From Plumapathes pennacea (lineage: Eukaryota > Cnidaria > Anthozoa > Antipatharia > Myriopathidae): DNA of 64,000 bases. Positions within the stretch are counted from its first letter, which is position 1. The number at the start of each line of letters is the position of its first letter. The position numbers were made by a program, and so were the translations under genes. Below, in pieces: positions 29,987-39,920 of this stretch. The stretch lies in NCBI GenBank assembly GCA_964036295.1, contig OZ038467.1, forward strand, positions 2,795,501 through 2,859,500, written 5' to 3'. The notes under the pieces were generated by a model, which saw only the letters and a list, made by a program, of their open reading frames with translations, was not told where the DNA came from and did not search any database.

Positions 29987-32900
29987 TTACATTTCAACTG
30001 TGAACACAGAGGGTAGAGAAGATTCACTGGATGATGATCCACTGACACAAGCACTGTTCCTCTGCAAAGACAAAAGAGAAACAGATTGAAAAGTTAAATA
30101 TTGTCCACAAGAATGCTGACACACAATCTCATAAAGAATTATTAAAAACTATACAACAACAATAACAACAGCTTTTATTTGTACAAAAAAGAACAGATTT
30201 AAATACAATATGGCTTAGAGTTACAGGGAAAATGTACAGGATGCTAGAAATAACTAAGTAAGTTGCACAATTAGTAAGTAACAACTACAGATAGTCAGAG
30301 GCGAGATATACTAAACCCTTTGTATGCGAACAGGACATTCTTGGCTATAATCAATTAAACAACATTGCAATTAAACAAAATTAAACAGCGAAAGTTAACA
30401 TACCCCTTGTGCGAGCTTCATCATTTCTTGTTTTAACTTCAGCAGAAGTCTCTCGTCATTGGGATGGTCAGAAGAACACATCTCATCCTTCTCCTTCTTG
30501 TACTGGAAAGTATCAACAGGAAGATAATAATATTTTCCTAGTTTTTACTTTCCAGTACATCAGATCACTGAGCTTTACCATAAATAATACTATTCACTAT
30601 TACAATTAGAGTGATTTTCAATTGACTATAGTCAAAATTATTTGTAAACAAGTTTAGCAGCATTCATGGTAAATTGTGCAAGAGCAAAAGCAAAACCTGA
30701 TTACAATATTCTCATGCAAGAAACAAGTTGCGATGGCATGTTCTTGTACTGCTGATTGGTTTCTTCAAAGTAAGAACAAATGCGGATTACTAAAATAATA
30801 ATGGCTTATGACTGGTTGAAAGCATTTCTTACAGTTTCTGTGATTGGCGGTGCACTTTTTTTGGTTTTGGTTTTCAACAGTTATCCGAAATGGTTCTGTA
30901 ACAAAATAATCGATAAACAAAATAAATACAAACTCCTCACTGCACATGGCTAGTAACTTACCTTCTTTACTACTGCTGATGGCCTGTCACAGTAAATACG
31001 TAACAAGGACCCCCACTTTGTGAGATGCGGATGAAGTTTCTAAAGAAAACAATATTCAGGCATATGTTGGGCAAAATTTATGTAAGGCCACCTTGTACAA
31101 CACCATTCAGGCACAGTGACATGCCAGCCATACAACCCAATGCAACATAAAGCATAGAATAACTTCCTAAACAACAGTCATTGAGAGAAAACAGAGGGGA
31201 AAGAAAAACAAAACACAGTGAAACACTCACCTGTAGAATTGCTTGGGAGGCAAGCTGCTTCCCAATCTTCTTGTTCTTGCAAGGACCCTAGATCAGAATG
31301 GAGGTTATAATCAGTGAGGCCATGTCACCAGCTGATAGTGACTCTAAGGCCCAGTCCAGACGTCGCTCTTTTCATGCGCTGAACTCAATGCAAATTAGCT
31401 CAAACAATGGCTTTTGCTCATTTGCATTGAGTTCGGCGCATGAAAAGAGCAATGTCTGAACTGGGCCTAACTGTCTTGGAGACACAAAATATGGTGCAAC
31501 TCATGACTAAACAAATTTTGATGGCCCCAGGGTGGTAAAACAGTGGCCCAAAATTTTGGCAACCCCAGGTGGTGAAATTGTTGGCCAATTTTTATGACCT
31601 TTGTGTGGTGAAATGTTTGGCCAATTTTGATGGCCCTGGGGTGGTGATACTGGCCTAAAATTTTGATGACCCCAGAGTGGTGAAATTGGCCTAAATTTCT
31701 GATGACCCAGGGATGTCCTAAAATATAATTTCAGTGGTTACATGTTATAGTCTAGAACAACCCAGCTGAAAAAGACAACATTTTAACATCCATTAGGTAC
31801 CACCAAACAAGTATCCCCTTCCCACTACAGCAGTACCCCTATGTTACTAATTCACTAATTCCTACTTACTGTATTTTAAACTTGCTACTTACTGTTGCTG
31901 TGTGTTTTCCACAGGTGATCTTATATGTGTGATTTTGGTTTTGTTCTGGAATAATGCGAAAATTTATAGTTGAAGGGCAGATTCCATGATTCCTGCAAGA
32001 CACAGAAATATGTTATTCACAAGTTATATGAAGAGAGAGTGAGGGAAGCAGCTACAGTATGGCACAGAAATGCAATTTATTACATGACATCACTTAAAAC
32101 ACTATGATAAAGTAGTAAAGTACCTTTTCAGACATTCTTGGAGAACTTGTGAAGGAGTGGGAATATTTACTCGAGTGCACAGATTGAACAGTTGCTTGTC
32201 TGTGATGTCGAGCTTATCAAAAAACTGTTGGCAAAGAAAGAGATGGCACATTAACACTACGTGACACAGCCACTGTATGGTAAAGTATAAGAATCTATTG
32301 AGCACTGAGGGGAGGTAGCTCAGAAAAGCAGAAGGGGGGAGGAGTACAAATCACATGTGCCACTATGCTCATTTGCCTCGACCTTGCCACACTAACTCCA
32401 ATCCATGTGGACCACTGTCTGCACTCAAGCACATGACTTATGCAAATTAGTGACTCAATGCAAATTAGCTCGAACAATGGCTTTTGCTCATTTGCATTGA
32501 GTTCAGCGCATGAAAAGAGCAATGTCTGAACTGGGCCTAACTGTCTTGGAGACACAAAATATGTGTACAAAATACAAAATACTTACTATTGGTTGTATTA
32601 AGTGCACTACATTATTGGTTGTATTAACTGCTTTGATTATATTACAACAGCACCCACAAATACCATAATATGATTATGACTCTTCACTCAAGACTCTGAA
32701 AATGACTGCCACTCAGGTGGTCGAAAAGTCAGTCACCAGCAACAGTCTTTCTGAAGAATAATATCACCGGGACAATCACCAGTTATAGATGAACAACTAA
32801 GTGCTTATACCCCTGGGTTCAAACCATTTACCAGGTAATATACCTCTAATTCATCTTGGGAGATAATATAGTCTCTTTTCTTCCTAAATATTTCTGGCAT

Positions 32901-38700: not shown

Positions 38701-39920
38701 CTTTTTGTATTGTTCTTACTCCAGTTCTATTGCTCTGTAGTTCGTTCTAACTGCAAGTAAACAAGTGGAGCTGAAGAATCCTGGTGTTGCAGCAGTGAAA
38801 CTACGGCATGACAGCAAGATCCTGGCGAGCGGGGGCTGGGACGGGAGGTGTGTCTTATTAGAACGTGTACTTATTGTTTGTTTTTTTGTTTTTTTTGTTT
38901 TTTTGTTTTTTGTTTTGGTCAGTATTTATGCACTGCTGCTGCATTGCCGAGAGGCTATTTCTTCACCAGAGGTGACTTATTCACCTGAAGAAACATTGAC
39001 GAATTCAGTTTCAGACACTGAAAAAGCCAGGCGAATTTAAAATATTTGCTATCTGTTGAGTGCGAGTGAAAGTTGCATATAACTTTAGGGCTGGTTTATA
39101 CTTGTAAAGCAGACGCAAGATTCAACGTTGAAAATGTTTGAATCAAGCACAAGAGAATGTTTCCAAGTCTTGGACTTGCGTTTGTTTTACAATTTTTACC
39201 GTGTTAACATCACTTGCGTTACTTTGTGCTTGCTTATGTGCAGTACGCTTGCGTGAAGTGAACCAGCCTTCAATCCCTAACTGTCTGCAACCTGATTCTA
39301 CTATCATTCCTCGCCATTATATCAGGATCATATAAATCACCGACAGAATCATCGCCTCATCCTCCATCGTCACAATTGTTTTCATCATGATCGTTGTCGT
39401 CGTCGTCGTCGTCATCATTATCATCATCATCATCATCATCATCATCATCATCATCATCATCATCATCATCATCATCATCATCATCATCATCATCATCATC
39501 ATCATCATCATCATCATCATCATCATCATCATCATCATCATCATCATCATCATCATCATCATCATCATCATCATCATCATCATCATCATCATCATCATCA
39601 TCATCATCAACAACAACATCAACATCATCAACATCATCATCCATCATTATTATTATTATTATTATCATCATCATAAATAACCGTTATCGTCATTATACAT
39701 CATCATCGTAAAACTTTATCGTTAGCGCTTAATCCTTTTCAGATTGAGAGTCTACGGATGGAAGAAGCTGCAACCTCTAGCGTATCTTCACCACCACACT
39801 GCCACGGTGAACTCTATAGACTTTTCAGAAGACCTGCCCAACACAGGCCAGTTAATGGCTGCTTCTTCCAAAGACTCCAGAATAAGCTTGTGGTCTATAT
39901 ATAACGAACAGCAAAGATAG
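35725..39920 (+). CDS. GNB1L: GNB1L: guanine nucleotide-binding protein beta-like 1 (WD40)
   Basis: Nine exons: 35725-35840, 36361-36483, 36766-36881, 36968-37014, 37237-37306, 37416-37559, 38552-38640, 38741-38847 and 39743-39920. They total 990 nt, or 329 residues (human 327), all in phase. It follows human GNB1L throughout as I remember it: PDPIYVLRGS, INLWSLKTKRPVLILDGH, HGRDGFIKIWD, VFGFCKFSIL, VNILELESKK, AYLVAGYEDGRVILWDV, PGVAAVKLRHDSKILASGGW and SSKDSRISLWSIY. It is a WD40 propeller; in human cells GNB1L has been linked to stability and function of PIKK kinases with the TTT co-chaperone machinery. It shares a 465-bp divergent promoter with DGCR8. Introns hold a foldback (37743-37923), a TTAACCC repeat (38144-38340) and a long ATC microsatellite. 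Confidence 0.96.
37111..37131. repeat. (GA)n microsatellite
   Basis: About 10 GA units in GNB1L intron 4, in an A/G-rich segment. Confidence 0.85.
37743..37923. repeat. Foldback palindrome, 181 bp, in GNB1L intron 6
   Basis: Arms aaatttccactggtttgcca... and ..ggcaaactagtggaaattt pair almost completely. The centre is gcggactcactcggcgaagcgcctcgtgagtccac. It is the sister of 34663-34843. A partial extra arm (ttaccgtggtaaataagagtccagac) lies upstream at 37621-37648. Confidence 0.92.
38144..38340 (+). repeat. TTAACCC-ended interspersed repeat (copy E)
   Basis: It starts TTAACCCTTTCACTCCTGAG and carries AATTCTCCCAACCATTCAAG, GTAGTGAGAATTGATAGG, TCTCCATACTGTATGATATA and GGTGAGAGACTGAAGGAG. It ends GTTGATCACTCTTGGTGAA. 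It is one of the cleanest copies. Confidence 0.85.
39085..39279. repeat. Inverted-repeat element (GGCTGGTT ends)
   Basis: ttagggctggtttatacttg at the left and, on the opposite strand, tagggattgaaggctggttc at the right. It is related to 7712-7845 and lies in the last GNB1L intron. Confidence 0.55.
39390..39678. repeat. (ATC)n / (GAT)n microsatellite, about 290 bp
   Basis: An uninterrupted TCA run of over 60 units (about 39415-39608), flanked by CGT, ACA and TTA variants, in the last GNB1L intron. It creates homopolymer ORFs (poly-Ile, poly-Ser, poly-Met, poly-Asp) that are artefacts. Confidence 0.98.

Follow-up and report, generated by a model that had tools for sequence, protein, structure and literature searches.

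DGCR8 is the RNA-binding partner of Drosha in microRNA processing, and both DGCR8 and GNB1L are deleted in human DiGeorge syndrome. The two human genes presumably point away from each other, and we take C22orf29 to be among the genes lying between them. Table 1 of PMC4487986 gives the human order as TBX1, GNB1L, TXNRD2, COMT, ARVCF, TANGO2, DGCR8, and TRMT2A; in that article, the order from TBX1 to ZDHHC8 is described as largely retained in mouse, a zebrafish block from tbx1 to tango2 as retained and ending before dgcr8, and the homologues of the region as spread over all five chromosomes of the fly and all five autosomes of the worm. The WD40 protein GNB1L is counted as a partner of the TTT chaperone complex. 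It is tabulated as human Asa1 in PMC10178989, where an interaction of the yeast Asa1 with TTT is described, as is its stabilization of the kinases Mec1 and Tel1. In this study, a stretch of 64,000 nucleotides (hereafter, the window) from the antipatharian Plumapathes pennacea (GCA_964036295.1, contig OZ038467.1, positions 2,795,501 to 2,859,500) was analyzed, in which DGCR8 on the minus strand and GNB1L on the plus strand were found to stand head to head. The explanation that we favor as a whole, with reasonable though not strong confidence, is that these are true orthologues in head-to-head arrangement with one CpG-rich promoter region, lying on a segment derived from the ancestral chromosome of human 22q11-q12 plus 12q24.

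The exon models of both genes were joined by hand from the sequence alone. DGCR8 extends from its start at 35259 to the end of its stop codon at 29987 in nine exons forming one open frame of 724 amino acids, and GNB1L from 35725 to 39920, likewise in nine exons, with one open frame of 329 amino acids; all eight introns of each gene have GT-AG borders. The genes are divergent, and the 465 bases between them (35260-35724) are a distance from ATG to ATG, not between transcription starts. These structures, their orientation, and the gap are direct observations. The first-pass annotation had called the same two genes, divergent and head to head with start codons 465 bp apart; the open frames, the introns, and the matches to the PDB and to a provisional human GNB1L sequence confirmed the calls, the gene models confirmed the arrangement, and the distance and coordinates proved exact. 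The pair is composed of the following features.

29987..30061, minus strand, DGCR8 exon 9 and stop codon (reading frame and splice site only; beyond the PDB alignment)
30404..30502, minus strand, DGCR8 exon 8 (model; weak PDB alignment)
30962..31039, minus strand, DGCR8 exon 7 (model, PDB alignment)
31231..31287, minus strand, DGCR8 exon 6, double-stranded RNA (dsRNA)-binding domain 2 (model, PDB alignment)
31893..31992, minus strand, DGCR8 exon 5, dsRNA-binding domain 2 (model, Pfam, PDB alignment)
32124..32224, minus strand, DGCR8 exon 4 (model, PDB alignment)
32844..34088, minus strand, DGCR8 exon 3, dimerization segment with Pro-Cys motif, linker, and dsRNA-binding domain 1 (model, Pfam, PDB matches)
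34328..34470, minus strand, DGCR8 exon 2, WW domain (model; PF00397, E 9e-4, under the curated cut-off; 3le4, 4e5r)
34983..35259, minus strand, DGCR8 exon 1, opening with the first in-frame ATG (joined gene model)
35260..35724, no strand, CpG-rich gap between the start codons, candidate bidirectional promoter (CpG observed/expected 1.16, motif sites)
35725..35840, plus strand, GNB1L exon 1 (joined gene model, as for all exons below)
36361..36483, plus strand, GNB1L exon 2
36766..36881, plus strand, GNB1L exon 3
36968..37014, plus strand, GNB1L exon 4
37237..37306, plus strand, GNB1L exon 5
37416..37559, plus strand, GNB1L exon 6
38552..38640, plus strand, GNB1L exon 7
38741..38847, plus strand, GNB1L exon 8
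39743..39920, plus strand, GNB1L exon 9 and stop codon

The minus-strand product matched 15 PDB sequences at E <= 0.01, the top five of which were all named DGCR8 (6v5b, E 2.5e-95; 6lxd; 2yt4; 1x47; 3le4). In sixth place came 4e5r, under the name MGC78846, which we take to be frog DGCR8, and the remaining matches were other dsRNA-binding proteins, from E 8.3e-6. On this ranking, led by DGCR8 names, the candidate that the gene encodes some other dsRNA-binding protein was ruled out. The PDB match runs from the WW-containing dimerization segment through the RNA-binding core into the C-terminal tail, of which it covers a part. Two dsRNA-binding domains were detected (PF00035, two stretches, E 2e-26), residues 459-672 aligning to the core of 2yt4, and they are preceded by the WW/dimerization segment, which matched 3le4 over residues 80-152 (E 5.4e-21) and 4e5r over residues 99-152 (E 1.5e-18); by Pfam alone (PF00397), the WW domain fell under the cut-off. 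The Pro-Cys motif, presumably the heme-ligand motif containing human Cys352, is kept ('vpclhhkk' aligned to 'ipclhykk' in the PDB alignment), heme binding itself being putative here. The C-terminal tail, the putative Drosha-binding part, is aligned as far as residue 702-703 of 724. Upstream of the first ATG, the frame of exon 1 is open as far as 35355 with no further ATG, and an additional 5' exon could conceivably lie beyond it. Vertebrate DGCR8 mRNA has a processing hairpin in its 5' region; no such hairpin was found in the 5' region of this gene, where the 498-nt fold of 34983-35480 gave a z value of -0.16 and 41 of 100 shuffles were equally good. A family of inverted repeats was also noticed within the DGCR8 introns (31340-31493 and 32453-32563). 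It is the second such family at the locus, the first being a palindromic element resembling miniature inverted-repeat transposable elements, with copies in DGCR8 intron 1 (34663-34867) and GNB1L intron 6 (37719-37926), 205 nt in length, 84% alike, and with arms of about 70 nt.

The plus-strand product aligned end to end with a provisional human GNB1L sequence, with 132 of 317 columns identical (42%), nine gap positions, and an E value of 2e-83. Its WD40 propeller was recovered over the cut-off (PF00400, E 1e-26). Among the best 60 of 152 PDB matches, generic WD40 proteins led with at most 90.8 bits and no GNB1L name appeared. The candidate that the gene encodes a generic WD40 protein was ruled out by the end-to-end similarity to this GNB1L sequence. 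The last intron of the gene harbors a TCA trinucleotide run of 87 copies (39412-39674).

Many housekeeping gene pairs are transcribed oppositely from one short CpG-rich promoter region, and the base composition of the present gap resembles such a region. The CpG observed/expected ratio of the gap was 1.16, above the values for the bodies of DGCR8 (0.26) and GNB1L (0.55), with TpG/CpA at 0.97 versus 1.39 in each gene body. This observed contrast, in which bodies low in CpG and high in TpG/CpA surround a CpG-rich gap, is the pattern of methylated gene bodies flanking an unmethylated promoter, and the gap is probably unmethylated, as judged from composition. The hexamer ATGGCG, presumably the core of YY1-like sites, occurs in the gap at 35389 (plus), 35400 (plus), and 35552 (minus), that is, 3 times at 25 CpGs as compared with 18 times at 1344 CpGs elsewhere, where two repeat arrays were masked for the count (P 0.004, uncorrected for the 13 motifs tried). 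From these features we infer that a shared bidirectional promoter region is likely to lie in the gap; most likely, the DGCR8 and GNB1L orthologues would be transcribed oppositely from this one short CpG-rich region. Such sharing, if true, would make it likelier that two housekeeping functions are expressed together at a basal level. The first-pass annotation had gone a step further in suggesting that a shared promoter would tie Microprocessor dosage to GNB1L, a tie that is conjectural; according to PMC6554986, Trmt2a of the 22q11.2 bidirectional pair TRMT2A/RANBP1 remained at the wild-type level in Ranbp1 null mice.

Three further genes of the window bear on its chromosomal origin.

47200..52500 (approximate ends), plus strand, SGSM1/2-type RabGAP gene, in pieces (PF12068 Rab-binding, E 1.8e-33; PF00566 TBC fragment, E 1.1e-5)
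56660..57860, plus strand, selenoprotein M-like gene, in pieces, with an in-frame TGA in a CGG-TGA motif (PF08806 Sep15_SelM, E 2.9e-6)
61070..63481, plus strand, RAB35, in pieces (best match Rab-35, E 2.8e-74; second kind Rab-1B, E 4e-53)

The RabGAP gene presumably belongs to the SGSM1/2 type, and the motifs of the selenoprotein gene suggest SelM over Sep15. In the latter, the TGA follows Cys-Gly-Gly (CGG*RLNRLPEV) and the C-terminal HTEL resembles an endoplasmic reticulum-retention signal, while no selenocysteine insertion sequence element was found with Rfam in 57800-59200 (0 matches at E <= 5). RAB35 has an additional exon at about 62154. The 64 kb also contain an alpha/beta hydrolase that we call ABHD11-like, a gene that is cyclin-like by eye and had no Pfam match, three nucleoside hydrolase genes, an ATPase-like open reading frame (ORF), a TPR-containing ORF, and a WD40 gene.

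We take the human positions to be 22q11.23 for SGSM1, 22q12.2 for SELENOM, 12q24.23 for RAB35, and 7q11.23 for ABHD11. Chicken chromosome 15 reportedly corresponds to human 12q24 plus 22q11-q12, going by the title of a 2003 report by Jennen. Since SGSM, SELENOM, and RAB35 all fit 22q11-q12/12q24 on the assumed positions, one ancestral chromosome is favored. With the pair itself left out, three of the five other genes fit this linkage group (P 1.5e-4 for a group holding 2.5% of genes, 1.2e-3 for 5%), the misses being the ABHD11-like and cyclin-like genes. Dropping SGSM as well left two of four (P 0.0036 or 0.014), and counting the four unplaced genes as misses gave three of nine (P 0.0012 or 0.0084). 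We infer that this segment and human 22q11-q12 plus 12q24 probably go back to a single ancestral chromosome, in which case the human and present linkages of DGCR8 and GNB1L would be related by descent at the chromosome level, a conclusion that is fairly supported and leans on assumed human positions. That the two genes met by pure chance, without common chromosome ancestry, is by comparison very improbable in our estimation: the pair is admittedly a single post hoc observation, but RAB35 and the SELENOM-like and SGSM-type genes fit as well by their assumed human positions, and a random neighbor from within six human genes is expected with P 0.0013.

Several observations weigh against the favored explanation, concerning both the promoter and the linkage group. 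The CpG level of the gap is unexceptional: of 274 overlapping segments almost equal to it in length, 26 attain it. Before other inferred starts, the ratio attained it for RAB35 (1.22) and was 1.12 for the ATPase-like ORF and 0.48 for the ABHD11-like gene. One TATA-like TATATAAAG box lies in the gap at 35674 on the plus strand, 51 bases ahead of the GNB1L start codon, and this TATATAAAG box may be a core promoter for GNB1L alone. The linkage test assumed both the group share of 2.5% or 5% and the human gene positions. Its least kind form, in which SGSM is dropped and the unplaced genes are misses, left two of eight genes fitting (P 0.016 or 0.057), a value that pure chance could accommodate; the versions including DGCR8 and GNB1L (five of seven, P 2e-7 for 2.5% or 6e-6 for 5%; four of ten, P 7e-5) are too kind, as they count the chosen pair. 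Moreover, the ABHD11-like gene lies outside the group by its assumed position, no human position is assigned to the cyclin-like, nucleoside hydrolase, ATPase-like, TPR, and WD40 genes, and vertebrates have a further SGSM copy elsewhere than on 22q.

Within the favored explanation, the immediate adjacency would be either ancestral or due to rearrangement within that chromosome, the data favoring neither. The first-pass annotation had proposed that the linkage is ancestral and that, in vertebrates, genes were later interposed or the interval grew. Its statement that TXNRD2, COMT, ARVCF, and TANGO2 separate the human genes agrees with Table 1 of PMC4487986. The ancestral linkage is supported less firmly and at the chromosome level, by the three further window genes at their assumed human positions, and an adjacent pair later parted in vertebrates would be a conjecture. 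When gene order is scrambled within a linkage group of 300-1200 genes, DGCR8 obtains a neighbor that lies within six genes of it in human 8 to 2% of the time, and one that is also oriented as in human 2 to 0.5% of the time, and any of five adjacent pairs per window would be similarly placed and oriented in 5 to 1%; the group size and the five pairs are assumed here, and every neighbor is drawn from the same group. These odds are suggestive only, because the pair was chosen after being seen. As a shared linkage group is likely, the step to ancestral adjacency is weakened.

A head-to-head pair already present in the common ancestor with vertebrates, into which TXNRD2, COMT, ARVCF, TANGO2, and C22orf29 were interposed later, is in our judgment rather less likely than not. 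It accords with the relative orientation in human and with the few human genes in between, a shared promoter would be a reason for the two to remain together, and such an oriented neighbor is rare when no linkage group is assumed (P 0.0004 with 20000 genes). Set against this are the scrambled-order odds above and, in PMC4487986, the zebrafish block that stops short of dgcr8 and the scattered fly and worm homologues. The alternative, that the linkage group is conserved and local rearrangement made DGCR8 and GNB1L neighbors in this lineage only, we judge to have about an even chance of being correct. Several window genes seem to share the linkage group, by assumed human positions, and local order can vanish while chromosomes persist: in PMC11175523, two hemichordate genomes retained their chromosomes and had no apparent microsynteny with each other, indicating that local order is easily lost. 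On the other hand, two genes joined by a short gap and a common promoter region would be difficult to separate, so that the pair may predate the lineage, and corals do retain some old neighbors, such as the xrn2-nkx2 block described in the same article. No report of an invertebrate DGCR8-GNB1L pair was met in a literature search that covered mostly titles, the beginnings of abstracts, and passages.

Were the pair ancestral, some of the interval deleted at human 22q11.2 would predate the split of this lineage from vertebrates, the shared promoter would be a reason why two dosage-sensitive genes are co-deleted in people, and a simple animal would be at hand for testing joint control of DGCR8 and GNB1L. 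The fullest version, an ancestral animal bidirectional pair whose one promoter jointly drives a cofactor of the Microprocessor and a chaperone partner of the DNA-damage and mTOR kinases, and which was split in the vertebrate line to give the 22q11.2 interval, appears doubtful to us. If the chromosome-level linkage alone is old, the locus would add one more case of conserved animal chromosomes.

Apart from the pair, no match at the gathering score was obtained in an Rfam scan of the whole 64-kb window, and a tRNA search of the window returned none. The nucleoside hydrolase cluster occupies 8193-14350 in both orientations, with three long exons matching PF01156; the open frames 9706-10143 (minus) and 10769-11101 (plus) encode first-exon-like peptides identical across about 70 residues. 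A 4.3-kb minisatellite (15976-20299) consists of 432 copies of the 10-base unit AAGTCCCCTC with a strong excess of C over G, and has long open stretches in several frames that encode an SPxKSPQVP-like repeat; it sits between the ATPase-like and TPR-containing ORFs, possibly within one gene. The minus-strand WD40 gene (25000-28080) is located directly downstream of DGCR8, and its fragment 26369-26860 matched PF25175 under the cut-off (E 9e-8).

In comparison with known systems, the locus is like human 22q11.21 in that GNB1L and DGCR8 are both present and presumably pointing apart, whereas TXNRD2, COMT, ARVCF, and TANGO2 (and presumably C22orf29) stand between the human genes and only 465 bases holding no gene model do so here. 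With the chicken chromosome 15-equivalent group it shares DGCR8, GNB1L, SGSM1, SELENOM, and RAB35 by assumed human positions, but the ABHD11-like gene is a misfit and a window of 64 kb is set beside a chromosome. TRMT2A/RANBP1 is likewise a divergent pair of 22q11.2, said in PMC6554986 to share a promoter; the genes differ, and the sharing reported there is for DGCR8/GNB1L suggested by sequence. Finally, the coral xrn2-nkx2 block comprises gene neighbors common to a cnidarian and bilaterians, according to PMC11175523, although several species were compared in that case and one window and human in this one.

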